A DNA stretch of 17,359 nt, taken from contig WREB01000003.1 of NCBI GenBank assembly GCA_009779525.1, forward strand, positions 1 to 17,359, in the 5' to 3' direction. Position numbers and translations under genes: made by a program. Under the pieces are notes generated by a model. That model made no database searches. It was not told where the DNA came from and saw only the letters and a list, made by a program, of their open reading frames with translations. Of the stretch, positions 2,071-17,050 are shown piece after piece. Position 1 is the first letter of the stretch. Every line of letters starts with the position of its first letter. This stretch comes from Defluviitaleaceae bacterium. GTDB lineage: Bacteria > Bacillota_A > Clostridia > Lachnospirales > WQUN01.

Positions 2071-4692
2071 TTATTTCGCCTTCCGGCTTTCGCTAACCTC
2101 GCACCAGCGCGATACCTTTTGGATGCATGTCTCGAAATCTATAGGCTTCGCTATGTGGTCGTCCATGCCCGCGGAAAGCGCCTGCTCTATGTCTTCCTTA
2201 AGCGCGTTCGCCGTCATCGCGATCACCGGGACGCCGCTGTCGGAGCGTCCGCTGCCCCTTATTGCCGCGGTCGCGGAATAGCCGTCCATTTTGGGCATCT
2301 GCACGTCCATCAGCACGCAGTCGAAATAACCCTCCCGCGAGCCGGAGAAAAGCCCGAACGCCTCCGCGCCGTCGCGCGCCTCGGTTATCTCGACGCCCGT
2401 CCCTTCGAAAACCTCAAGCATTATCACCCTGTTAATCTCGATGTCGTCGGCCAAAAGCAGCCGCTTTCCCTCAAGGGAAACTTCGCGCGCGCTCTCCTCG
2501 CCTTGTTCGTGCGGTAAAATTGAATCGGAAAGGCCGAACGGAATCGTGAAGTCGAACCTGCTGCCCTTGCCGAGCTCGCTTGTCACCGTCATTTCGCCGC
2601 CCATGAGCCCCGCGAGGTTATAGCTTATCGAAAGCCCGAGCCCCGAGCCGACGTGCCTCCTGCTTAAAAAGGTGTCTTCCTGCTCGAACGGCGAGAATAT
2701 CTTTTCGAGGAATTCATTCGACATCCCGATCCCGGTGTCCTCGACCGAAAACGATACCTCGCACGAATCGGCCCCGCGCTCCTTGAGCATGACCTCAAGC
2801 GAAACGCTGCCCTCCTGCGTGAACTTAACCGCGTTCGAAAGCAGGTTTATCAATATCTGCTTGATCCTGAAGCCGTCGCCCGTCAAGACCTCCGGAAGCT
2901 CGGGGTCGATGGATTGGACCAGCTCTATTCCGCTTTCCCCGGCGCGGATGGAAAGCAGCTCGACGCAGTCCATCGCCACCCGTTTAAGGTTTAACGGCTC
3001 GCTTTTTATTTCCATCTTGCCCGACTCTATTCGCGACATTTCGAGGACGTCGTTTATTATGTCCGAAAGGTGGCTGGACGAAGAGACGATCTTCTTGAAT
3101 CGCTCGGAGCTTTCCTCAAGCAGCTTGTCCGTAAGGCCGAGCTTCGCCATGCTTAATATGACGTTAAGCGGCGTCCTGAGTTCGTGGCTTACCCTAGATA
3201 AAAACTCGCTTTTCGCCTTGTTCGCCGAAAGCGCTTTATCTTTCGCTGCGACAAGCTCGGTCGAATCGGTCACGACTATTATCGCGCCGTTCGCCTTGCC
3301 GTCGCGCGTCACGAGGCTGCACAAAAACGAAAGGCAAAACTTACCCTCCGGAAGCGCGAACCATATTAAAACAGAAAAGCCCCCGTCGGCCAGGCGGTCC
3401 GCCAGCCTATTCTTAAGCTCAAGCATATCGCAGGCGTCGTCCGTCTCAAGCATCGAACGGTAGACGGCCGCGTCCTCAATCCCGGCGAACGTCTCGCTGA
3501 ACAGTTCGTTTTTGAAGACGATATCGTAATCCGCGTTTAAAATAGCGAGCGCGCCGGGTATGTTGTCGAAATAGCCGCCGATGACGTCGAGCGTATCGTT
3601 TATCTTGTCGGCCGCCTGACCGAAAAAGCCTCCGAGCGCCGAGGGGTCGCCCCTCGCGCCGAGCCTGCCCGACATCGCCGCCTCAAAAAGCGCGTCGTTT
3701 TTGCCGAGCATCTCGCGAAGCGCCTCGCTCATCGAGGCGAAGGACTTTCCTAAGATTCCCATCTCGTCTTTCCTGTTGATAAGCCATTCGGGGATCTCGC
3801 CCTCGATGTTTCCGGTTGAAATCTCGCTTGAGATCGCGGTGAGCTTTTGAATCGGCCGAACGACGAAGCCGCGGAGCGCGAAATACATGACGAAAAGCAG
3901 CGAAAACGAGCCGATCACGATAATCGTGACGCTCGTGTACAAAAACGACCTAAGCTGGGTCTCGAGCGACTGCATGTTGATGTCCGTACCGATGATTGCG
4001 ACGACGTCCCCGTACTCGTCCTTGATAGGCGTGAAGGAATACGTGTTCTCCGAATGCTCGTGCCTCGGGTCGTTCAGCACGACGACCGGCTCGCCCGTCC
4101 TGAAAATCCGCTCGGCCTCCGTGTAGCTTGATTTCGGCACGGGAATCCCGAAATCTTCGTCGAAGAAACTCGTCCCTCCGCCCTGAAACGTAGCGTCGAA
4201 CACCAGAAAATACATGTCGGGGCATCCCAGGTCCGCGAAGATATAAAAATACGCAAGCCCCGTCCCAACCCTGAGTTCGAGCATGCGCCGTTTTATCGTA
4301 AAATATTTTTCGTCCTTAAGCTCGGTCAGCGACTCGACGTAGTCGCCCAGCCACTTCTTCGCCGCGTGGTATTCGTCCGGAAAATCCCTTCCCTCGCGGT
4401 TCGCCTCCGCTTCCAAAACCAGGCTCCGGTTGGCGAGAAACGCCGGCGCGTTCTCTGTGATCCAGTCCCTTTCTCTAAGCCTGTCGACGTACGGAAGGAT
4501 ATCTTTATAGGTGTACTGCGCGAGGAAAATGCTCCCCGGCGTCTGCAGCCTGTCCTCGTAGCGCATCTGGAACGACGACCTGATCATCGAGCTGCTGAAG
4601 AAGACGAGCAGCGCCGTGGCGGTAACGACTCCTGCGAAGTTTATTAAAAGTATCTTTGCGTTTATCTTATTTTTGATGCCGTTAAAAAGCAT
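2071..4692 (-). CDS. Membrane-bound hybrid sensor histidine kinase (sensor-HAMP-PAS-like-HisKA-HATPase-REC)
   Basis: The frame can be extended to a TTG at 4731 (886 residues), but the ATG at 4692 has GAGGTG six bases upstream and gives 873 residues. I prefer it. Numbered from the TTG: membrane helix about 27-49; extracellular Cache-like sensor about 50-264, including YSFTPIKDEYGDVVAIIGTD; second membrane helix about 265-288; HAMP about 289-345; PAS-like segment about 385-490; HisKA with phospho-acceptor His516 in SHELRTPLN; HATPase_c with N-box Asn629/Asn633, G1 box DTGIG from Asp665 and G2 box GSGLGLSI; and a receiver domain with Asp762/Asp763, phospho-acceptor Asp809 in LMDVQMPKMDG, and Lys862. 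No output or Hpt domain is present, so phosphate must pass to a separate partner not seen here. The sugar-binding lipoprotein gene follows 44 bp downstream, suggesting the extracellular domain may read its ligand-bound state. The domain calls are secure; the partnership is inferred. Confidence 0.92.
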   Translation of the reverse strand: MLFNGIKNKINAKILLINFAGVVTATALLVFFSSSMIRSSFQMRYEDRLQTPGSIFLAQYTYKDILPYVDRLRERDWITENAPAFLANRSLVLEAEANREGRDFPDEYHAAKKWLGDYVESLTELKDEKYFTIKRRMLELRVGTGLAYFYIFADLGCPDMYFLVFDATFQGGGTSFFDEDFGIPVPKSSYTEAERIFRTGEPVVVLNDPRHEHSENTYSFTPIKDEYGDVVAIIGTDINMQSLETQLRSFLYTSVTIIVIGSFSLLFVMYFALRGFVVRPIQKLTAISSEISTGNIEGEIPEWLINRKDEMGILGKSFASMSEALREMLGKNDALFEAAMSGRLGARGDPSALGGFFGQAADKINDTLDVIGGYFDNIPGALAILNADYDIVFKNELFSETFAGIEDAAVYRSMLETDDACDMLELKNRLADRLADGGFSVLIWFALPEGKFCLSFLCSLVTRDGKANGAIIVVTDSTELVAAKDKALSANKAKSEFLSRVSHELRTPLNVILSMAKLGLTDKLLEESSERFKKIVSSSSHLSDIINDVLEMSRIESGKMEIKSEPLNLKRVAMDCVELLSIRAGESGIELVQSIDPELPEVLTGDGFRIKQILINLLSNAVKFTQEGSVSLEVMLKERGADSCEVSFSVEDTGIGMSNEFLEKIFSPFEQEDTFLSRRHVGSGLGLSISYNLAGLMGGEMTVTSELGKGSRFDFTIPFGLSDSILPHEQGEESAREVSLEGKRLLLADDIEINRVIMLEVFEGTGVEITEARDGAEAFGLFSGSREGYFDCVLMDVQMPKMDGYSATAAIRGSGRSDSGVPVIAMTANALKEDIEQALSAGMDDHIAKPIDFETCIQKVSRWCEVSESRKAK

Positions 4693-4737
4693 TCGGGTCA
4701 CCTCGAAGCCGACAACACGTATTTTACTCAATTTTAT

Positions 4738-4778
4738 GAAAAAATTAAAGGCTTTCGAGCCTGCCCCGAAAGCCTTTT
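4738..4778 (-). terminator. Rho-independent terminator of tRNA-Thr
   Basis: On the minus strand an 11-bp perfect stem (4767-4777 pairing with 4747-4757, AAAGGCTTTCG/CGAAAGCCTTT) with a 9-nt loop is followed by a T-rich run (AATTTTTT). It lies directly downstream of tRNA-Thr and only about 45 bp upstream of the kinase start codon. Confidence 0.8.
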
Positions 4779-4785
4779 GGCATGA

Positions 4786-4858
4786 AGCTAATGGCGGGAC
4801 TCAAACCCGCGACCTGCTGATTACGAATCAGCTGCTCTATCGGCTGAGCTACATTAGC
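4786..4858 (-). tRNA. tRNA-Thr (anticodon CGT)
   Basis: A cloverleaf can be drawn by eye on the minus strand. The 7-bp acceptor stem is GCTAATG/CATTAGC, the D arm begins TAGCTCAG, and the anticodon stem GCTGA/TCAGC encloses loop TTCGTAA with anticodon CGT (codon ACG, Thr). The T arm carries GGTTTGAGTCC. The gene is 73 nt including the discriminator T; CCA is not encoded. A strong promoter lies just upstream (4881-4909) and a terminator just downstream. Confidence 0.94.
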
Positions 4859-4880
4859 GAAACCGCCGCGCGACCCGCGT

Positions 4881-4909
4881 AATATAGCAAATAGCCCAAT
4901 CGGTGTCAA
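4881..4909 (-). promoter_or_regulatory. Sigma-70/SigA-type promoter of tRNA-Thr
   Basis: Minus strand: -35 TTGACA (4904-4909, perfect consensus), 17-bp spacer, -10 TATATT (4881-4886). The tRNA 5' end is 22 bases downstream of the -10 box. Confidence 0.8.
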
Positions 4910-4977
4910 ACGGACGTTCCGACCGTCGTCGGCCTCGCGTTAAAAATTGCTACCGTTTGCCTCGCGCAAAATTGTTG

Positions 4978-5006
4978 TTGCCATGCGCCGCGCGCCGTGG
5001 TATATT
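4978..5006 (+). promoter_or_regulatory. Sigma-70/SigA-type promoter of tRNA-fMet
   Basis: Plus strand: -35 TTGCCA (4978-4983), 17-bp spacer, -10 TATATT (5001-5006). The mature tRNA begins at 5023, leaving a short 5' leader. Confidence 0.7.
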
Positions 5007-5022
5007 CGTCGGGCTAAACCGG

Positions 5023-5096
<74 letters not shown>

Positions 5097-5098
5097 TC

Positions 5099-5132
5099 AA
5101 AAGGCCGCCTGTAAAGACAGGCGGCCTTTTTT
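5099..5132 (+). terminator. Rho-independent terminator of tRNA-fMet, probably bidirectional
   Basis: A perfect 14-bp stem (AAAAGGCCGCCTGT, 5099-5112, with 5117-5130) closes a 4-nt loop AAAG and runs into TTTTTT on the plus strand. On the minus strand the same hairpin is followed by a T4 run and lies immediately past the stop codon of the GH31 gene (5135), so it probably serves both genes. Confidence 0.88.
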
Positions 5133-5134
5133 AG

Positions 5135-8100
5135 TTATTCCCATTTCGCGAACAGCTTGACGTTTGCGGTAACCATGTCGCAATCAAAATCCCAAATGCG
5201 GAAAAAATCGGCGTCCTTGTACCAGCCCGCGAACGTTTCGCCCTCCTTGGAGGGTTCCGCCGGCGCGGGTATCCTGCTAAGCGGGGCGACCCCTTCGATT
5301 GCCGCGGTTTCGGCGCCGCCGTTCGAATCGAACGTAACCGTATGCGTCGCGTCGGGCGAAAACTCCCACATCCTGAAGTCGTCGAAATAAACCGTTTCGC
5401 CCGACACGTTGTAAACCTCTATTTTCGCCCGCCTAAAGTCGCCCGTCTTAAACACGACCGCGACCGTCGTATACAAATCGCCGTCGGACTCGACCGAGAC
5501 ATATTCGCCGTCGCTCCCGCCGAACCCGCTTACCTTAAGCGCGCCGTGCCCGCGTATTTCGGCCTTTACGATGTAAGCCGTAGCGGGATTTAACTTGTTA
5601 AACTGAATGTACCCGCCCCCGCCCGGCGGCGCCATGATCGCCCTGCTTCTCCGGTCCACGACGTAGTCGGGGTCCTGCGCGACTGCCGCGCCTCCGTAAA
5701 GCGCGTTCGGGCCGCGCAGCCAATCGGAATAATCGTCGGCGTAGTTGATTATCTGGCTGGAATTATAGTTGTTGTAATCCATCGTGACCGAGCAGTCCCT
5801 AAACGAAGCGGCTCCGACCCCCGAGGCGTTTACCAGCCGTATCGCGACAGGCAGCCCTGACGGCTCCGTCTTCATCGCGGTGAACGTCATTTGCACAAGC
5901 TGCCAGTCGCCGCCGCCCGGTTCGCTCTTCGCAATTTTTTTCCCGGGCAGGATTCGGGAAGTGTAGGATTCTCCCTTTATCCGCTCCTCGTCCACGCAGT
6001 TGAAAATCTCGACGGTCCCTTGCGAGCCGCCATAATTTTTTACCCAACACGAAAACGTATACCTTGCCGTCGCGAAGATATCGTCGATCGTCTGCCAAAC
6101 CCAGCCGGTCGAAACGTTAAACGCTCCGGGTTCGTTAGCGGCCGCCGCGGCTTCGCCGATAAACTGCCACGCCTCAAAGCCCGGATCCCTTATGTAATTG
6201 ACATTGAAGGAACCGTCGGTAACCACGCAGTCGTCGAAGCAGACGGAACCGTTTTCGCCGGAGAGCGAAAGCGTCGCGGCCAAAAACGAGCTTCCCGTCG
6301 TAAATTCGATTACGACGAGCTCCCAATCCGTTCCTCCGGAACTTTTCCCGACGGCTTCGCTTCCGCCGTGGCCGGTTATTGTGATTAACCCCGCGGCGCC
6401 CGGATCGATCGACCTGACGTATACCGCGGCGATATAGTCCGTATTCGGGAGCAGGCCCCGGATTTCCTGCTTCGCTCCGCCTCCGCCCCCGGCCACTAAG
6501 GTAACCGCGCCGTAGCCGCGCGATTCAAACTCCGCCGATACGTAGCCTCCGTCGAACTCCCAGTCGCCACCCAAATAACCCTTTTCGATCAGTTCGTTGG
6601 TTCCCGATACATTCGCCGCGTTCGGGACGTTCGCGTCGTTTCGTCCGGTCCGCGCTGTTTGATCCTTGATGATTTCGGCGGGGGCCGTTATCGCTATTTC
6701 CGTCTTGACCGAAATTGTTTCCCACGAAGGCGGGACGCTTACAACGGCCCTGTTTCCGTCCATATACCAGTCGCTTGCCTCAGCGCCGTCGACTGCCACG
6801 CTAGATACGGCGTCCACCCCGTAGACGAGCAAGTACTCGCGGTTCGTGTCGCCCGAAGCCGAGATGGTGAAGCCGCCCTGTCCGGGCGTAAGCGCGTAGT
6901 CGACGAAAACGCCCTTTTGCTCCCATACCCGCGTCGAAACGGCTTCGACGTACGGAGGCGTCACATAAAGGGCGCCGACGCTTCCGCGCGTCATCGATTC
7001 GCCCATTTTTAGCGACGGGGCAAAATTCATCGGAATGACCGAACCCGACCGCACGTATACGGCTTTCTCGTCAAGCTCCCTGTATACTTCCAATTCGCAG
7101 TTCGTGGACGCGGCAAGCTCGCCGGTAAAAAAATCCGTCCACCTGTCGTACGGGAACACGACGTTTTTTGTCATGCTCCTTTCGATTATCGGCGAAACCA
7201 TCATCGCCGGCCCGAACATGTACTGCGCGATTATTTCGTAATACGAATCGTCCTCCGGAAACGCCACCGGAAGCGACCTTACCATCGGTATCCCGGAAAA
7301 ACTCGCCTCGACCGCGCAGCCGTACACGTAGTCGAGCATGTTTTCGCGCAGCCAGTTATAATATTTATACGTTTCGGTCGTCTGCTCCGGGTTTTCGTAA
7401 TACCACGGCTCGCGGCCAAGGCCGCGCATCTCCTGCCCGTGGTAGCGCATAAGCGGGGAGAACGCCCCGAACGACATCCATCTCAAATATACGTCAAGGT
7501 CCCGCTGCCCTATGTAGCCGCCTATATCCGAGCCCCACGTGGAAAATCCCGACGCGCTGATGTTAATTAGCGCGTTCATCGCCTCGCGCATCCCGTTGAA
7601 CGAAGACGGCTGGTCGCCCCCGAATTGGCACGCGAAGCTTTGCGAGCCCGCGCAGCCCGAGCGCGAAAACAAGACGAAGTCCTCTCCCCTTAATTCGGTA
7701 AACACCTCGTTGATGGTCTTGTTGTAATAATACGGATACAGGTTGTGCATCTCGTCGCCGGTCCTGCCGTCATGCAAAACGGAAGCCGGACCGAGCGATT
7801 CGCCGAAATCCACCATCGTTCCGAACGCGCCGTAGCCCGTCTCAATGAAAGGGGTGTAGTAGTCGAGCCATGCGGCGAAGGCGTCCGGATGAGTGAAGTC
7901 CGTATAGCGGCTGCCCGTCAGCGACGGCTGCTCGACAAACGGGCATTCGGGTTCCGTATCGCGGCGGGGCGACATGTCGGTCCATAAAAACGGGCGTACC
8001 GAGTGCCCCTCTTCCTCAAGCATATTGAACAGATCCGCGTACCAGATATCGTCGCTCCAGCTATTAAAACCGTCCTCGACGTATATCGCGGAGTGCGGGA

Positions 8101-9364: not shown

Positions 9365-10270
9365 ATGGAGCCTGCGGCGCTGCGGACGGACAACTTGACG
9401 AAGAGGTACGGCGAGGCGTACGCGCTAAAAGATTTTTCGATCGCCGTGCGTCAAAACGAAGTATACGGCCTCGTCGGGCGCAACGGCGCGGGCAAAACGA
9501 CGTTTTTCAAATGCGTCGCGGGAGTCGCCGCGCCTCAGGCGGGCACGGTCGAGCTGTGCGGCGAGCCTCCAAACCGGCGCGCCGCGCGTAAGCGCATGGG
9601 GCTTATGATAAACCCGTCCTTTTTTTCATACCTCGGTCCTTACGAAAACTTAACTTATATGGCCCGCGTCAAGGGAGTCGGCGCCAAGGGCGAAGTCCGC
9701 CGCCTGCTTAGCCTTGTCGGGCTTGAAGGCGTGAGGAAACCATTCAAAGCGTTCTCGCTTGGAATGAAGCAGCGGCTGGGCATCGCCGGGGCGCTTTTGG
9801 GTTCGCCGCAGCTAGTCGCGCTGGATGAGCCGATTAACGGACTGGACCCAAAGGGGATCGTCGAAATCAGGGAACTGGTAAAAGAACTCCATGCGAACTT
9901 CGGCACAACTTTCGTCATATCGTCCCACATACTGAGCGAACTCGACTTGGTTGCGACGCGCTTCGGGTTTATCGAACAAGGCTCGCTTGTCGGCGAAATA
10001 ACGCGCGAAGAGCTCCACCGGCAAACCGGAAGCGTATTGGAAATAGAAGCCGGCGACATCAAAGCCGCGCTGTCCGCGCTCGAATCCATCGGGATTACCG
10101 GGGCGGAGGCAGCAAACGGACGGATAAGGCTGCGCGAGCAAATCGATCAGCCCCACCGGATCGCGCGCGCGCTGGTCGAGGCGGGCGTCGAGGTCCGCGA
10201 CTTGCACCGGAAGGAAACCATGCTGGAAGAATACTTCCTGCGGCTAATCGGGGGCGGCGCGAGTGATTAG
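9365..10270 (+). CDS. ABC transporter ATP-binding protein (BcrA/CcmA-like exporter type)
   Basis: A 301-residue nucleotide-binding subunit. Walker A is GRNGAGKTT (Lys44), the ABC signature is SLGMKQRL (131-138), Walker B is LVALDEP with Asp154 and Glu155, and the D-loop is NGLDP. The H-loop His188 is in ISSHILSELD. The C-terminal extension after about residue 215 is typical of BcrA-like drug or antimicrobial-peptide exporters. The start codon follows a GGGAGAGG ribosome binding site. Its stop overlaps the GTG start of the next gene by 8 bp, so the two subunits are translationally coupled and should form one transporter. The transported substrate is unknown. The YxeA-like gene downstream suggests a role in peptide-antibiotic or envelope-stress handling, by analogy with the Bacillus yxd/yxe locus. 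Confidence 0.93.
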   Translation: MEPAALRTDNLTKRYGEAYALKDFSIAVRQNEVYGLVGRNGAGKTTFFKCVAGVAAPQAGTVELCGEPPNRRAARKRMGLMINPSFFSYLGPYENLTYMARVKGVGAKGEVRRLLSLVGLEGVRKPFKAFSLGMKQRLGIAGALLGSPQLVALDEPINGLDPKGIVEIRELVKELHANFGTTFVISSHILSELDLVATRFGFIEQGSLVGEITREELHRQTGSVLEIEAGDIKAALSALESIGITGAEAANGRIRLREQIDQPHRIARALVEAGVEVRDLHRKETMLEEYFLRLIGGGASD

Positions 10271-10991
10271 GCTTATGCGCGGCGAGTTCTACAGGCTGCT
10301 TCGCAAAAAAAGCGCGTACGCATATTTCGGCGCGCTTGCCGCGGCATACTTCCTCGCCGCGTTCGTCCGGTCGGGCGGGTTCGGCGCAGAATCCGCGCTA
10401 AGGGACGCGTCAAATTTCTTCTTGTTCCTTCCGCCTGTCGCGGGCGGATTCGTATTCGCTTCGGTATATGTCGACGACTTAAACTCGAAAACCCTGACCG
10501 CGCTGGTCGGCGCCGGGGTGGGCAAGGCGCAAATAGTTTTAACGAAACTCGCCGTCGCTTTATGCTTAAACGCGGCCGTCTTCGTCCTTGCGCCGCTTTT
10601 CCATCTGGCCGCGTACGCGACGCTTGGGGCGGGGGCGGACGCGCAGGCCGCGGCGTCCGTTTTCATCGAGTCGTTAAGATATTTTTTGATGAGCGCCGCG
10701 TATTCGGCCATGTCCGGCGTCGTGGTCTACGGCCTGCAGCGCGCGACGTTCGCCGTCGCGGCTTATTTGCTGCTATCGTTCGGCGTTGTGGGCGGCCTTA
10801 TAGCCGCGGCGTTTCGCCAGTTCGCGCCCGGCCTTGCCGACTATTTAGTACCTGGCGTCGTAAACAAATTAATTTCCGCGATCGCCGAAGGGACGCCGGC
10901 GCTTATGCCGTTCGCCATATACGCGCTGTATTTGGCAGCGGCGGCCGCGGTCTCGGTCGCCGCGTTCGAAAAAAAGGAAATGGAGTTTTAG
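10263..10991 (+). CDS. ABC-2-type transporter permease subunit
   Basis: A 242-residue, very hydrophobic protein with about six predicted membrane segments (near 18-36, 52-70, 92-118, 136-156, 162-184 and 212-234). It starts with the cytoplasmic MRGEFYRLLRKKSAY motif common in permeases of this class. The GTG at 10263 overlaps the ATPase stop; an ATG at 10275 is an alternative start four codons later. It ends one base before the ATG of the YxeA-like gene. Membrane partner of the ATPase upstream. Sequence divergence in this class is high, so the call rests on hydrophobicity, size and position. Confidence 0.85.
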   Translation: MIRLMRGEFYRLLRKKSAYAYFGALAAAYFLAAFVRSGGFGAESALRDASNFFLFLPPVAGGFVFASVYVDDLNSKTLTALVGAGVGKAQIVLTKLAVALCLNAAVFVLAPLFHLAAYATLGAGADAQAAASVFIESLRYFLMSAAYSAMSGVVVYGLQRATFAVAAYLLLSFGVVGGLIAAAFRQFAPGLADYLVPGVVNKLISAIAEGTPALMPFAIYALYLAAAAAVSVAAFEKKEMEF

Positions 10992-10992
10992 G

Positions 10993-11403
10993 ATGAAACC
11001 GAAGGTTCTTTTTACCGCGCTTCTCGTCTGCGCCGCCGCGGCCGTCGTTGCGCTGGCTCTCTGGGGCAGGAATTATTACGCTAACCGCTACGTCGGCGCC
11101 GATTACTACGCGATGGTCCCGCTGGATTACGACGTCGCGCAAGTACAGATGCGTTCGATGAACGGCGAGCCTATCGGCGAAGGGGTCGCGTATTCGCTCA
11201 CCGCGTACGACGAAACCGGGAAGCCCAAAGAAGTATCCTTCACCGTCTACAGCCCCGAAAGCGGCCTTTCGCGGGGCGAAGTCCAGCCTATGCCAGGCGA
11301 ATTTTTATGGATAAGCGCGAGCAGCCAAATCGTCCTCAGATGGCGGCTGGCGGAAGCGGAATCGATTCCGCCCGCCGCGATGGAAAAAATCGGGGGGCGC
11401 TGA
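10993..11403 (+). CDS. YxeA-family (DUF1093-like) membrane-anchored or secreted protein
   Basis: A 136-residue protein with an N-terminal hydrophobic segment (about 5-24), which may be a signal peptide or single anchor, then a small extracytoplasmic domain. Motifs of the YxeA family are visible: YAMVPLDYDV, the core YSLTAYDETGKPKEVSFT and a C-terminal IPPAAMEKI. In Bacillus, yxeA sits with the YxdLM ABC transporter that responds to cationic peptides; here it likewise ends a BcrA-like ABC operon. GGAG at about 10983-10986 precedes the ATG, which lies one base after the permease stop. The family's molecular function is unknown, so I assign only an accessory role to the transporter. Confidence 0.72.
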   Translation: MKPKVLFTALLVCAAAAVVALALWGRNYYANRYVGADYYAMVPLDYDVAQVQMRSMNGEPIGEGVAYSLTAYDETGKPKEVSFTVYSPESGLSRGEVQPMPGEFLWISASSQIVLRWRLAEAESIPPAAMEKIGGR

Positions 11404-11410
11404 CCATTTG

Positions 11411-11461
11411 CCGCGCGCATGGCGAATTTCAACCATGCGTTTGCGCGGCGATTGCAAACGC
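11411..11461 (+). repeat. Two mutually exclusive hairpins after the ABC operon
   Basis: CCGCGCGCATGG (11411-11422) can pair with CCATGC plus GCGCGG (11433-11438 and 11443-11448, with a four-base bulge). GCGTTTGC (11437-11444) can instead pair perfectly with GCAAACGC (11454-11461). The two stems share bases. Neither is followed by a T tract, so a plain intrinsic terminator is unlikely. Confidence 0.45.
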
Positions 11462-11491
11462 CGCAACGGATGTGCGAAGTTAAGATCCGCG

Positions 11492-11513
11492 TATAATAAT
11501 GTTTTGCTTGACA
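11492..11513 (+). promoter_or_regulatory. Ambiguous promoter elements of the MFS leader
   Basis: A perfect TATAAT (11492-11497) lacks a good -35. A perfect TTGACA (11508-11513) lacks a good -10 at normal spacing (GCATAC about 19 bp downstream is the best). One of them probably starts the structured leader, but the sequence does not decide which. Confidence 0.35.
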
Positions 11514-11515
11514 CG

Positions 11516-11724
11516 CCGCGAGTTTCGTGCGAGCATACGCGGACCAAGAAGCGGGGAAGATCATGAACCGTAGCTTTAACGTCATCGGCATCATAATTAT
11601 TAGCGGCGCCGCCGTAAAGGGCGACGCTTCGCATAACCATGCCGATGGCTGAGTCATGATTTAAAGCGCTGGCTTTAAGGGGCTTCGTCGGCATACCGGC
11701 GAGGCCCCTTTATATTTTAGGAGG
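11516..11724 (+). promoter_or_regulatory. Candidate cis-regulatory leader RNA (attenuator or riboswitch) of the MFS transporter gene
   Basis: The stretch from the YxeA stop to the MFS start (about 330 bp) holds no convincing gene. Its downstream two-thirds can form nested and competing stems. CCGCG (11516-11520) pairs with CGCGG (11538-11542). CATCGGCAT (11583-11591) pairs perfectly with ATGCCGATG (11639-11647). GCTTTAA (11573-11579) pairs with TTAAAGC (11661-11667). ATCATGA (11560-11566) can pair with TCATGAT (11654-11660), as a pseudoknot if the previous stem is formed. A second GCTTTAA (11672-11678) and a second TCGGCAT (11688-11694, inside the terminator hairpin) can compete for the same central complements. 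This is a switch-like arrangement. I considered TPP, SAM, cobalamin, ZTP, THF, fluoride, c-di-GMP and T-box consensus elements and recognised none. A free-standing small RNA ending at the hairpin is the main alternative. Confidence 0.6.
11677..11718 (+). terminator. Terminator-like hairpin directly before the MFS ribosome binding site
   Basis: A 15-bp stem (11677-11691 with 11696-11710, two wobble pairs) with loop CATA begins AAGGGGC and ends GCCCCTT, then TATATTTT. The ribosome binding site AGGAGG (11719-11724) follows at once. The position fits a regulated terminator (attenuator) better than the end of the previous operon, whose last stop is 270 bp upstream. Confidence 0.72.
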
Positions 11725-11732
11725 TTTTGGAA

Positions 11733-12983
11733 ATGGAACAAAAACGTGGATTTGCGGTGGTCGCTGCTTCGATAGCGATACAGCTTACGCTAGGCACCGC
11801 GTACATCTGGAGCGTCTTCCAGACGGGCATCGCCAACAGCCTTTTTGGCGGCGACAACGCGGCCGCGGGCCTGACGTTTTCGCTGCTTCTCGCGATGCTT
11901 GCGGTCGGAAGCGTCGTGGGAGGGAAGCTGACGACCGTCTTCACGACGCGCAGGGTGGTTTTTTTCGGCGGGATCGTGCTGGGGCTTGGCTTCATGCTCG
12001 CTTCGCTTGCGAAGGCGGAGTACGCGTGGCTCCTTTGGCTGACCTACGGCGTGATGGGCGGGCTCGGCATGGGCTTCTCGTACTCGACCACGATCGCGTG
12101 CGCCCAAAAATGGTATCCCCACAAGAAGGGTTTCGTCACCGGGATTATCGTTTCGGCGATAGGGCTTGGAGGCGTGCTGTTCACCCCGATCGTCGAAAAG
12201 CTGATCGTCGTCTTCGGCGGCAGGGGCTTCGGCGAGCCCAAGACGTTTCTCGCGCTTGGCGCGTCGTTTCTCGTCGTCTGCGGGATAGGCAGCGCCTTCA
12301 TGAAAAACCCGCCCGAAGGGTACAAGGCGGGCCAGGCCGCCAGGGGCGGCGCTAAACTTGACATAAAAAGCCTTACTTCCTCTGAGATGCTTAAGACCCC
12401 GCAGTTTTACCTCGCGACATTCACGCTGATGCTGGCCTGCATGGGCGGGCTTATGATGATCGGCTTCGCCAAGCCCATCGCCGAGGCGAAGGGTCTCGCC
12501 GAGACCGCGACGGTCGGCGTGCTTGCGATTTCGCTCACCAATTCGATGGGAAGACTGCTTTGGGGGATGATTTCGGACAAGCTCGGCAGGATCAACACGA
12601 TACTGATTCTTTTGGCCGGCACCGCGCTTTTATCGCTTCTGGTAAACGCCGCCGCGGGCCCGCTCGTCTACGTGCTGATCGCGTTCATAGGGTTTTTCTA
12701 CGGCGGAATCATCGGAACGTTCCCGTCGCTTACCGCGGATTTGTTCGGGCCAAAGCACATGGCGACCAACTACGGGCTCGTGCTCCTGGGCTTCGGCTGC
12801 GGCGCGATAATTTCGTCGCAGATCGCGGGCTATTATAAGAACCTCGCGACCAAAAACATCGACCTGATGTTTCCGGCGTTCGTTATCGCGTCGTGCTGCG
12901 CGGCCGCGGGAATAATAATGATGCTGATCGTCAGGGCGATTGTTCGCGCGAAGAGGAAACCCGTCGGAACGCCCGCGGATTGA
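11733..12983 (+). CDS. MFS transporter, OFA (oxalate/formate antiporter) family
   Basis: A 416-residue integral membrane protein with about twelve membrane segments in two halves. OFA-family features are visible: the N-terminal GFAVVAASIAIQLTLGTAYIW segment, 'GGLGMGFSYSTTIACAQKWYPHKKG' (loop and helices 4-5), NSMGRLLWGMISDKLGR after helix 8 (the MFS-type loop motif repeated in the second half), and GPKHMATNYGLVLLGFG. The chosen ATG has AGGAGG eight bases upstream; a TTG six bases earlier sits too close to that site. Family members exchange oxalate/formate or carry other small carboxylates; the substrate here is unknown and there is no oxalate-degradation gene nearby. Expression is probably controlled by the structured leader and hairpin in front of it. 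The stop codon overlaps the next promoter. Confidence 0.9.
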   Translation: MEQKRGFAVVAASIAIQLTLGTAYIWSVFQTGIANSLFGGDNAAAGLTFSLLLAMLAVGSVVGGKLTTVFTTRRVVFFGGIVLGLGFMLASLAKAEYAWLLWLTYGVMGGLGMGFSYSTTIACAQKWYPHKKGFVTGIIVSAIGLGGVLFTPIVEKLIVVFGGRGFGEPKTFLALGASFLVVCGIGSAFMKNPPEGYKAGQAARGGAKLDIKSLTSSEMLKTPQFYLATFTLMLACMGGLMMIGFAKPIAEAKGLAETATVGVLAISLTNSMGRLLWGMISDKLGRINTILILLAGTALLSLLVNAAAGPLVYVLIAFIGFFYGGIIGTFPSLTADLFGPKHMATNYGLVLLGFGCGAIISSQIAGYYKNLATKNIDLMFPAFVIASCCAAAGIIMMLIVRAIVRAKRKPVGTPAD

Positions 12984-13007
12984 CCGAATCGATTTTAAAT
13001 ATATAAT
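12980..13007 (+). promoter_or_regulatory. Strong SigA-type promoter of the small-protein/purC operon
   Basis: -35 TTGACC (12980-12985) overlaps the MFS stop codon; the spacer is 16 bp and the -10 is a perfect TATAAT (13002-13007). Predicted transcription starts near 13014, about at the ribosome binding site, so the leader is nearly absent and no riboswitch can fit. Confidence 0.75.
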
Positions 13008-13030: not shown

Positions 13031-13246
13031 ATGAAAAGGTTCGTGCCGCGCGACAAGTTGAGCAAGAAGGCGAGGAAGGAGCTTTACGGCAAGGAAAGGG
13101 GAAGCTGGGGCGGAGTGAATCCCGTGACAAAAATCCTCGAAAGCAAGAAGCTCTACGACCGCAAGAAAGCCCGGATGGCGTTTGACCGAAACGATCCGGG
13201 CTTTCGTCCTTATAGACCGAAAATAAACCATAGAGGAGCCGCATGA
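13031..13246 (+). CDS. Small basic conserved hypothetical protein
   Basis: A 71-residue, strongly basic protein (KRFVPRDKLSKKARKELYG, then GSWGGVNPVTK, then YDRKKAR) with no signal peptide or membrane segment. The 'FVP..KLSKKA...L...R..WG..NPVTR..' pattern recalls short uncharacterised proteins common in Clostridia. Function is unknown; the charge would suit binding to RNA, DNA or ribosomes, but this is a guess. An AAGGGGGG ribosome binding site stands eight bases before the ATG. It is the first gene after a strong promoter and overlaps purC by ATGA, so it is translationally coupled to that gene. Confidence 0.75.
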   Translation: MKRFVPRDKLSKKARKELYGKERGSWGGVNPVTKILESKKLYDRKKARMAFDRNDPGFRPYRPKINHRGAA

Positions 13247-13932
13247 CGCCGATGAAGCATATCTACGAGGGAAAGACGAAGACCGTTTACGAGCTGGAAA
13301 ACGGTAACTATCTGCTTAAGTTCAAGGACGACGCGACGGGGACCGACGGCGTGTTCGACCCGGGTTCGAACACCGTCGCGCTGTCGATCGAAGGCCTTGG
13401 CAAGGGCGGACTTAAACTTACGGCGCATTTTTTCGCGATGCTCGCCTCAAACGGGGTCAGGACGCATTTCGTGCGCGCCGACTTCGACGCCGCCGAAATG
13501 GAGGTGCTTCCCGCGACTTCCTTCGGCGACGGAGTCGAGGTCATCTGCCGCTTTAAGGCGGCGGGCAGCTTCGTCAGGCGGTACGGCGGCTACGCCGAAA
13601 CCGGAATGGAGCTTGACGCGCTAGTCGAGGTGACGCTTAAGGACGACGCGCGCGAGGACCCGCCGATAACCAAGGACACGCTTGCGATGCTCGGCATCCT
13701 TTCGAACGGCGAATACGAATCGCTTAAGGCGCAGACGCAAAAAATCAGCAGGCTGCTTAAGGCGGAGCTCGAGCGCTTCGGCTGCGACCTCTACGACCTT
13801 AAACTCGAGTTCGGGCGAAACGGCGGCGAGGTGATCTTAATCGACGAGATTTCCGCGGGCAACATGCGCGTCTTTAAAGACGGCAGAAGCCTCGAGCCGC
13901 TCGAACTTGCAAGTATCGTGACGGGCGGATGA
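13243..13932 (+). CDS. purC: SAICAR synthase (phosphoribosylaminoimidazole-succinocarboxamide synthase), short clostridial-type form
   Basis: A 229-residue cytoplasmic enzyme of de novo purine synthesis that joins CAIR and aspartate with ATP to give SAICAR. Recognisable motifs are YEGKTKTVYE (N-terminal nucleotide-binding hairpin), LLKFKDDATG, VICRFKAAGSFVRRYGGYAE, VEVTLKDDAREDPPI, DLKLEFGRNGG and LIDEISAGNMRV. The C-terminal motif ISAGNMRV differs from the usual ISPDTCR of Bacillus/E. coli PurC, but this version is, to my knowledge, seen in a short clostridial subgroup. The start overlaps the previous stop (ATGA) and has GAGGAG just upstream. No other purine gene is in the window, so purC stands apart from a pur operon. 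A lipoprotein gene follows 34 bp later without an obvious terminator. Confidence 0.92.
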   Translation: MTPMKHIYEGKTKTVYELENGNYLLKFKDDATGTDGVFDPGSNTVALSIEGLGKGGLKLTAHFFAMLASNGVRTHFVRADFDAAEMEVLPATSFGDGVEVICRFKAAGSFVRRYGGYAETGMELDALVEVTLKDDAREDPPITKDTLAMLGILSNGEYESLKAQTQKISRLLKAELERFGCDLYDLKLEFGRNGGEVILIDEISAGNMRVFKDGRSLEPLELASIVTGG

Positions 13933-15242: not shown

Positions 15243-17050
15243 ATGGCAAACCCTGCCCGCCCGAATAAATTATCCGTATTATTTTTATTGGCCGCGTCAT
15301 TAACCATAACTTTTTATATTTTTGGCTGCGGCGCGTCGGGCGAGCCCGGCGCGGCCAATAATGAAGACGCCGCGCCAAGCGCCGAAACTATAGCGACTGT
15401 CGATGAGCCTACGCCGAAAGAAGTCGCCGACTACGCCGACTACGGCGACATCGCCTCCGGCGAATTTGATTATTCGACGGAGTTTTTGCCGATCGTCTGG
15501 GGAATACATTCAATGAACAAGACTTCCCCCATCGCTTACCCGGATGCCAGTAAAATCGCGGAAACAATAAACAAACGCTTTAACGTCGGAATCGACACCC
15601 TACTGATAAGCTCATATGATTTTTTACCGTTAATGATCGAGGAGGGCCGCCTCCCCGACATTTTTTATAACCGCGGCATCAACCTAAGTGATTTGATAAA
15701 AAGCGGCGCGGTAAAAAAAGTCCCGTGGGATTTGATAAAAAAATACGCGCCGCGCTATTACGCGCTGCTTGGCCAAAAAAGGAAACGCCGGGCAAATACG
15801 AAAACCCGACGAACGAAGAAAACGCGTACAAGCTGCCGAACATCGTCTATCAGGGTGACGCGCTCGAGTATTATTCCGTCTACCGCTACGACTGGCTCGA
15901 CGAGATAGGATTCGCGCCGAAGGGCGAAGTGGTTGAGATCGGCGACAGGATCTACTTCACCGAAACGCCGTTTGACAGCTACGAGCTCGAGGCGATACTC
16001 GGGTTGTTCGCCGAAATGAAGGGCGGAAAAAGCAACCCCAATGTGCCAGTAAATACCAATTCGCTATACCAGCAGGCGATGGTGATTACGGGAAATTTGA
16101 TTTACGACAGCGCGAACCTCGACTCCCTGATGCGGATGTACGGGATCCGCTCGATCAACATGGAGCAGGACGGCGAGGCGGTGGCGTGGTTCGCGAGCTA
16201 CGCCTTTAAAAAATTCTTATCGTTTATGGCCGGCTTGGTTAAAAACGGAAGCTGCTTCGTCGAAAGCAGGCAATATTATACGCAAATATACATAAGCAGC
16301 TGCATTGTGGGCCGCGCAAGCATGCGGTTTGATTCGATGTTCGGCGAAAATAATTATTTGCCGGGCTACATCGAGAGCGCCCTCTTTCACGCCGACAACG
16401 CCGATATAAAATTTTTGCTGACCCCGCCCGAAATCGGCCCCGAAGGTAAGCAGGGGTCGATGCGCCCAAGGGCCGCCGGCGCGGTTGTAAATGATTACAT
16501 GTTTTTTCTCTTAAACGCGGATTTAACCGACGAAAAGCTAATCCGCATCCTGCAGATATTCGACGAAATTTCCTTCGATCCCGAGCTGTACGTGACAGTC
16601 AACCACGGCTTCGAAGGCGCCGACTTCGAATGGGGCGGCGCGCCCTACGATTCGGCGATCCTCCCTCATAAAAACACAATCGAACCCGTCGGGGTGTTTT
16701 CGACGTTTATCAAGGACGGAAACGCCGGAAGGGAAGCTTACCTGTACCCGTCGGACGTCCTTTATAAGTACGCGACGGGCCCGGGCGCGTCGCTTTACAA
16801 AGATCCGTATAAAACGGACCCGGAAGGCTTGTTCGAGGACGAGCGCAGGGCGCTAAGCGGGACATACCCGTTCGCGTCACTGACAAGCGCGAAGTGCTTG
16901 CAAAAAATTGCGGACGATTTCTACCGCGACGTGATCGCAGGGACAAAAGACGCGGAGCAAGACTGGGACGCCTATATGGACGCGCTTCGCGCGAACGGGC
17001 TCGATGTGTGGAACGAATTCTTCAACAAGCTGCCGGCGACCAATAAATAA
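15243..17050 (+). pseudogene. Extracellular solute-binding lipoprotein (sugar ABC type), interrupted by a -1 frameshift
   Basis: One gene in two frames. The first (from 15243) gives a lipoprotein signal with lipobox FGC (Cys29), an acidic linker, then DIASGEFDYSTEFLPIVWG, and is good to about 15772, after which it turns into a basic nonsense tail. The second frame takes over at the A6 run (15775-15780) with KKETPGKYENPTNEE and continues without a stop to 17050, with RYDWLDEIGF and a long binding-protein-like C-terminus. Restoring one A gives 602 residues, a normal length for large clostridial solute-binding proteins that deliver oligosaccharides to an ABC importer. No permease or ATPase is adjacent. 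The break could be a real mutation, an assembly error at the homopolymer, or slippage on A6; the downstream half has clean codon use, so decay, if any, is recent. The GTG at 15725 is not a real start. Confidence 0.8.

Follow-up and report, generated by a model that had tools for sequence, protein, structure and literature searches.

The window analysed here, 17,359 nucleotides of a Defluviitaleaceae bacterium (contig WREB01000003.1), contains a leader at positions 11560-11724 that is very probably a classical ribosome-mediated attenuator, which would sense isoleucine through the charging of tRNA-Ile and control the OFA-family transporter gene 3' of it. The layout of the leader, with an ORF, a run of Ile codons, pairing arms, a stop codon and a terminator (Table 1), is the anatomy of the trp/ilv/leu-type attenuators, a family of leader-peptide attenuators. 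The mechanism is textbook; the unexpected part is the target gene, a transporter.

Table 1. Positions of the leader elements, the transporter gene and the nearby promoter-like site in the window.
Feature	Position	Strand	Remark
Shine-Dalgarno-like GGGGAAG	11553-11559	+	belongs to the leader ORF; putative function, from its sequence
Outer stem, ATCATGA	11560-11566	+	pairs with TCATGAT at 11654-11660; nested around stem 1:2
Leader peptide ORF, MNRSFNVIGIIIISGAAVKGDASHNHADG	11563-11652	+	29 codons; stop codon 11650-11652; relatives have Ile/Leu/Val-rich ORFs in the same place
Arm 1, CATCGGCAT	11583-11591	+	partner is arm 2
Four Ile codons in a row, ATC ATA ATT ATT	11590-11601	+	a fifth Ile codon at 11584-11586
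Arm 2, ATGCCGATG	11639-11647	+	partner is arm 1 or arm 3; ends just 5' of the leader-ORF stop codon
Small hairpin, TTAAAGC/GCTTTAA	11661-11678	+	common to the antiterminator and terminator folds of the truncated leader
Intrinsic terminator hairpin	11677-11710	+	15 pairs, -28.5 kcal/mol
Arm 3, CGTCGGCAT	11686-11694	+	antiterminator partner of arm 2; within the 5' half of the terminator
T-rich tail, TATATTTTA	11711-11719	+	directly after the terminator hairpin
OFA-family MFS transporter gene	11733-12983	+	416 codons; Shine-Dalgarno AGGAGG at 11719-11724
Promoter-like TTGACC-16-TATAAT	12980-13007	+	at the end of the transporter gene; a consensus match

Within the leader, GCTTTAA occurs at 11573 and 11672 with its complement TTAAAGC at 11661, and TCGGCAT occurs at 11585 and 11688 with its complement ATGCCGA at 11639. 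An earlier note on this DNA had named these words together with ATCATGA and TCATGAT, and all of them were found where it had placed them. Two such 7-mer sets of copy, complement and copy are present in 11560-11724, and two are reached by only 6 of 20,000 dinucleotide shuffles (110 of 20,000 have at least one); the duplicated arms around a shared central complement are real and beyond chance. The stretch 11540-11730 reaches -77.5 kcal/mol on folding; its shuffles average -58 kcal/mol (z -4.69), and none of 200 came as low. Arm 2 can pair with arm 1 over 9 bp or with arm 3 over 9 pairs including one G-U, and folding gives mutually exclusive structures, 1:2 with 3:4 or 2:3, with the intrinsic terminator 5' of the gene. 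The 1:2 duplex of the window is stronger than shuffles of its own region (p 0.017). The 2:3 duplex by itself is no stronger than such shuffles (p 0.34). Folded in isolation into 2:3, the stretch 11606-11700 has only a small advantage over its shuffles, of which 19 of 200 reached as low an energy (z -1.42). The pairing of ATCATGA with TCATGAT, which had been suggested to form a pseudoknot, is nested around stem 1:2, and a pseudoknot is not needed.

The earlier note had overlooked a short ORF within the leader. This ORF follows a Shine-Dalgarno-like word and, judging from its sequence, is probably translated; its run of Ile codons adjoins arm 1, that is, codons for the regulating amino acid lie beside the arm that a stalled ribosome would cover. 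Since the Ile-rich frame is placed as in the trp/ilv/leu-type attenuators, what the translating ribosome senses is most likely the charging of tRNA-Ile, and this speaks against the small-molecule switch of a new kind that the earlier note had implied.

The growing transcript was folded in three ribosome states: with no ribosome, with 11563-11612 hidden by a ribosome on the Ile codons, and with 11636-11665 hidden by one that has reached the stop codon. With no ribosome, 1:2 formed first and then 3:4. In the stalled state, transcripts ending at 11694, 11700 and 11704 formed 2:3 (9 pairs). Once the end reached 11708, the terminator became the fold of lowest energy and stayed so in longer transcripts; at full length it had -45.6 kcal/mol versus -28.2 kcal/mol for the antiterminator. 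With the ribosome at the stop codon, 3:4 formed. Separate folds of the truncated leader agreed with the three-state folding. The attenuation logic of the earlier note, in which one central segment chooses between the upstream arm and the terminator, is right. Because the full-length fold in the stalled state is the terminator, the escape must be kinetic, with 2:3 forming first. Kinetic escape from the terminator is also found in known attenuators.

We propose the following mechanism, in line with the principle of ribosome-mediated attenuation as outlined in PMC1183508. When charged Ile-tRNA is scarce, the ribosome would stall on the Ile codons and cover arm 1; with arm 1 hidden, arm 2 would pair with arm 3 before the 3' half of the terminator is made, and RNA polymerase would read into the transporter gene. 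When isoleucine is plentiful, the ribosome would reach the stop codon and cover arm 2, and the terminator would form. In the leader that is not translated, arms 1 and 2 would pair and the terminator would form as well. The transcript presumably starts at a promoter upstream of the leader. A scan of 11000-11560 on the + strand found no promoter-like site 5' of the leader at the scan threshold; a perfect TATAAT at 11492 and a perfect TTGACA at 11508 are present, and their mutual spacing is not proper. The same type of consensus scan found a promoter-like site (9/12 match) at 11688-11716, over the terminator.

Contigs were scanned for OFA relatives, which gave 79 loci. These loci are mostly from MAGs of Bacillota and Spirochaetota, with a few from Bacteroidota, Fibrobacterota, Elusimicrobiota, Planctomycetota and Methanimicrococcus; in many cases the isolate codes are probably those of termite-gut MAGs, and two are named 'labiotermitis'. 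A composite test was applied to the 320 nt upstream of 78 OFA genes, namely that of the window and those of 77 loci in which 150 nt or more of upstream sequence were present. It required a Shine-Dalgarno word, an ORF of 14-50 residues in which I, L or V make up at least 6 of 10, and a terminator hairpin after the ORF; its thresholds were chosen after the leaders had first been inspected. The combination was found in 16 of the 78 upstream regions, one of them doubtful, and 62 failed, while 3 of 1,560 shuffles passed, or 0.15 per set. With stricter I/L/V content, 12 regions passed versus 0.1 for shuffles at 7 of 10, and 6 versus 0 at 8 of 10. When the test was run with nine other amino-acid sets, eight gave 0 and the set GAS gave 3. 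Examples of the leader peptides are MKNRVFANIIDSIIGIIIIIILKISVSDVSKPAIV (L033), MIPTNALVIFISIIILSDNVILRCAE (L041) and MNNRIRRVILILSIIGLIILIYRLSAGKRQN (L009). The doubtful case, L065, has a peptide that looks like a lipoprotein signal; it counts among the 16, was given a negative label in the tree, and is omitted from the sums over 14 leaders described below. Of the two positive controls from E. coli, leuL was found and ilvL was missed, and therefore the test is not fully sensitive.

Among other genes in the fetched loci, 2 of 238 passed the composite test, a count in which some genes may appear twice since the loci partly overlap (L080-L097 with L098-L109). One of the two is the leuA gene heading the leuA-ilvB-ilvC-ilvD-leuA-leuC-leuB cluster of genome G010; a like leader thus heads a leuA-ilv operon in a genome whose OFA gene (L041) has one too. 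Two tandem Ile/Leu/Val-rich leader ORFs (L098, 4775-4861 and 4937-5065, + strand) precede this cluster. A shared regulon, with like leaders on the ilv/leu operons, was found for G010 only: the ilv/leu operon of G005 has a weaker leader candidate (5 of 10 I/L/V) and that of G006 has a T-box, and the other ilv/leu regions inspected, in which the first genes of the operons were not all identified, had no convincing leader. In a wider whole-genome sample, OFA matches were found in 6 of 295, 10 of 391 and 5 of 241 genomes at the limits used, or 21 loci, of which 4 passed the composite test, all of them genes already counted. For three of these loci (L119, L125 and L130), the test was not aligned to the start of the gene, which is why L119, the gene of L041, was missed.

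The pairing of the arms was then compared across the leaders with 400 shuffles per leader, taking as the 2:3 duplex the stretch after the stalled ribosome with the 5' half of the terminator, and as the 1:2 duplex the start of the leader with the stretch after the stalled ribosome. Fisher sums for the 16 leaders versus shuffles were 2.5e-10 for 2:3 and 4.1e-9 for 1:2; for 14 leaders, omitting the near-duplicate L070 and L065, they were 7.1e-9 and 5.9e-9, and since some leaders are related, the leaders in these sums are not fully independent. In six related leaders (L002, L004, L009, L025, L026 and L034), the 2:3 register paired in 48 of 53 cells, and the slid registers paired in 8 of 47 (-2), 21 of 53 (-1), 17 of 48 (+1) and 9 of 42 (+2). 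Between sub-groups of leaders, the primary sequence and the stems differ and the make-up of the peptide is kept. The design of the window's leader recurs on related genes.

The leader trait (15 rows) needs 14 changes on a tree of 80 OFA proteins, and shuffled labels need 13.9 on average; the starred branches force at least 6 changes. A single inherited attenuator is not supported by this scatter, and the 14 changes indicate that leader control was gained, lost or missed many times. We take it as pointing to function that Ile/Leu/Val sensors were used repeatedly on a single clade; frequent loss from an ancestral state, or missed cases, would fit as well.

Two other explanations of the leader itself can be weighed against these results. 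In one, the leader is a riboswitch of a new kind, which binds a ligand and acts through an expression platform of the attenuation type, and the short ORF is accidental. The strong alternative folds would suit it, and so would the competition of the upstream arm and the terminator for one segment, which is seen in many riboswitches. A scan of the window with the Rfam 15 covariance models (matches up to E 5) had no match in the leader; all 6 matches, two tRNAs and four weak ones, were between 4645 and 5205. The two tRNA genes lie on opposite strands, tRNA-Thr (cgt) at 4786-4858 (-) and tRNA-Met (cat) at 5023-5096 (+). The earlier note had recognised no known class, and had counted a match to one among the grounds against its own reading. 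The absence of a fitting Rfam class stands, but the leader-peptide attenuator is a known class and it fits; to our knowledge, Rfam covers leader-peptide attenuators for single operons only. The recurrence of Ile/Leu/Val frames with a Shine-Dalgarno word and a terminator far above the shuffle expectation, and the conservation across sub-groups of peptide make-up with no aptamer, make a riboswitch highly improbable. In the other explanation, the hairpin ends a free-standing small RNA or a transcript from upstream, and the transporter has its own promoter. The promoter-like site over the terminator would provide one, and the TATAAT and TTGACA upstream of the leader could hint at a start for the RNA despite their spacing. 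However, transcription from 11688-11716 would start at or inside the Shine-Dalgarno sequence of the transporter gene, and relatives show frame, arms and terminator arranged in the same way, leaving this explanation with very little probability. A BLAST search of 11480-11735 against plasmids gave no match. As this case shows, riboswitch-like leaders in general should first be checked for a leader peptide.

Some relatives of the transporter gene have a T-box instead. T-box leaders were found upstream of the OFA genes in L005 (66.8 bits, E 3.4e-13) and L050 (76 bits, E 1.4e-15), with scores under the RF00230 gathering score of 93. From their sequences, we read the putative specifier of both as AUC, Ile, using a specifier-finding rule that we presume to be the accepted one. 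The same rule applied to the T-box of L134 gives UAC, Tyr, which fits the adjoining gene of the tryptophanase/tyrosine phenol-lyase family. In a scan for T-box motifs upstream of the OFA genes, up to 2 mismatches gave none besides L005 and L050, and up to 3 mismatches gave weak matches at ten further loci. A further short ORF with a Shine-Dalgarno-like word is present between the T-box terminator and the OFA gene in L005 (MDVAAVIGRFRF) and L050 (MTVADLIDILSR). The T-box of L134 (3920-4204) lies directly 5' of the tryptophanase/tyrosine phenol-lyase family gene (4271-5716, +), which is convergent with the OFA gene of G009; the presence of a starvation sensor on an enzyme that usually works in catabolism suggests that this one may serve synthesis.

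The proteins closest to the window transporter share 92% and about 75% identity with it. The nearest curated model is NF049980, the SfMCT L-lactate transporter (314.3 bits, a near miss of the cut-off of 320), and among solved chains the protein matches OxlT with E 5e-29 and SfMCT with E 2.7e-32; all three belong to the same MFS family. OxlT binds the two carboxylates of oxalate with Arg272 and Lys355, as described in PMC10070484. Arg272 is kept in the window protein as R274, and the position of Lys355 is F354; both residues are invariant in 19 aligned relatives. The replacement of Lys355 makes oxalate unlikely as the substrate.

The neighbours of OFA genes may offer a clue to the substrate. 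An acyl-CoA ligase gene (L007, L025, L026, L040 and L057) or a CoA-transferase gene (L074) lies within 150 nt of the OFA gene on the same strand, and in L033 a ligase gene is one gene further away. In L063, from a Chitinispirillia MAG, leuC and leuD homologues (4349-6210, +) lie directly 3' of the OFA gene, and a gene of the acyl-CoA dehydrogenase family lies 5' of it. Of the loci with ligase, CoA-transferase or leuCD neighbours, L025, L026 and L033 have a leader peptide. By tblastn over all 80 loci, ligase homologues were found in 7 of 80 loci, a count without a 22%-identity match in L054, versus 0 of 12 ilvB regions. The neighbour proteins scanned with profiles were picked by hand (28 different and 8 more), and most other neighbours have unrelated functions; the ligase context is only suggestive as a clue to the use of branched-chain acids. 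IOR alpha scored over the cut-off in all 12 leader-bearing genomes searched, from which the L076 genome was left out, versus 2 of 14 control genomes, which were not matched anaerobes. In G005, the genome of L026, about 8 kb separate the OFA-ligase pair from a gene group with IOR alpha/beta and a PaaK-like gene.

The OFA gene of the window has no acyl-CoA ligase gene beside it. The promoter-like site at the end of the transporter gene indicates that the genes 3' of it are probably another unit. The stretch 13031-13932 (+), which has a good promoter-like site 5' of it, holds a small basic ORF and then a short purC-like gene (92 bits, cut-off 189.9). Upstream of the leader, 9365-11403 (+) holds an ABC ATPase (best NCBIfam match lantibiotic protection, under the cut-off), a permease-like ORF that had no match, and a YxeA-family protein that narrowly exceeds its cut-off; this is possibly a peptide-antibiotic protection cluster. 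Further downstream, two overlapping frames (15243-15908 and 15725-17050, +) look, in their sequence, like one solute-binding-type lipoprotein broken in two.

According to PMC7356843, branched volatile fatty acids serve rumen bacteria as starting material for branched-chain amino acids: 2-methylbutyrate for Ile, isobutyrate for Val and 3-methylbutyrate for Leu. We tentatively propose, as a reading that is plausible yet falls somewhat short of an even chance, that this OFA clade of gut and other anaerobes, labelled 'oxalate/formate antiporter', is an importer of branched-chain carboxylic acids that feeds Ile/Leu/Val synthesis by activation and reductive carboxylation, and that lineages repeatedly added sensors of tRNA charging, either leader-peptide attenuators or Ile T-boxes. 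Candidate acids would be 2-methylbutyrate, isobutyrate, isovalerate or the matching 2-oxo acids. For the transporter of the window itself, import of a branched-chain carboxylic acid for Ile/Leu/Val synthesis is a possibility that we hold at a little less confidence still. To a similar degree, it may be that the attenuator is real but the substrate of the transporter is lactate, pyruvate or some other common monocarboxylate. The link to branched-chain amino acids would then reflect no more than a general response to starvation, or the provision of pyruvate for Ile/Val/Leu synthesis. The SfMCT near miss, the window's lack of an adjoining ligase gene, and the scatter of the leader trait over the tree, with most homologues either lacking a leader or having one that escaped detection, would all agree with such a substrate. 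Against it, Ile-reading leader peptides and T-boxes recur on this one OFA clade, acyl-activating genes adjoin several members, and leuC/leuD adjoin one.

Leader-peptide attenuators of branched-chain amino-acid genes are known from E. coli (ilvL and leuL) and Corynebacterium (ilvBNC). Like them, the leader of the window has a short ORF rich in the regulating amino acids 5' of the structural gene, arms 1 to 4 that pair either as 1:2 and 3:4 or as 2:3, and an intrinsic terminator ahead of that gene; unlike them, its target is an MFS transporter of the monocarboxylate type and no biosynthetic operon. With T-boxes (RF00230) it shares uncharged tRNA as the physiological signal, but the device is a leader peptide, and the Rfam scan found no T-box anywhere in the window. 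In the literature searched, no OFA transporter under leader-peptide control was found, and publication elsewhere is possible. The regulatory device is a direct clue to the substrate of a transporter clade that is labelled oxalate/formate in databases, and if uptake of branched acids is indeed regulated in this way, it would be a cross-feeding route of gut microbes that is testable gene by gene.
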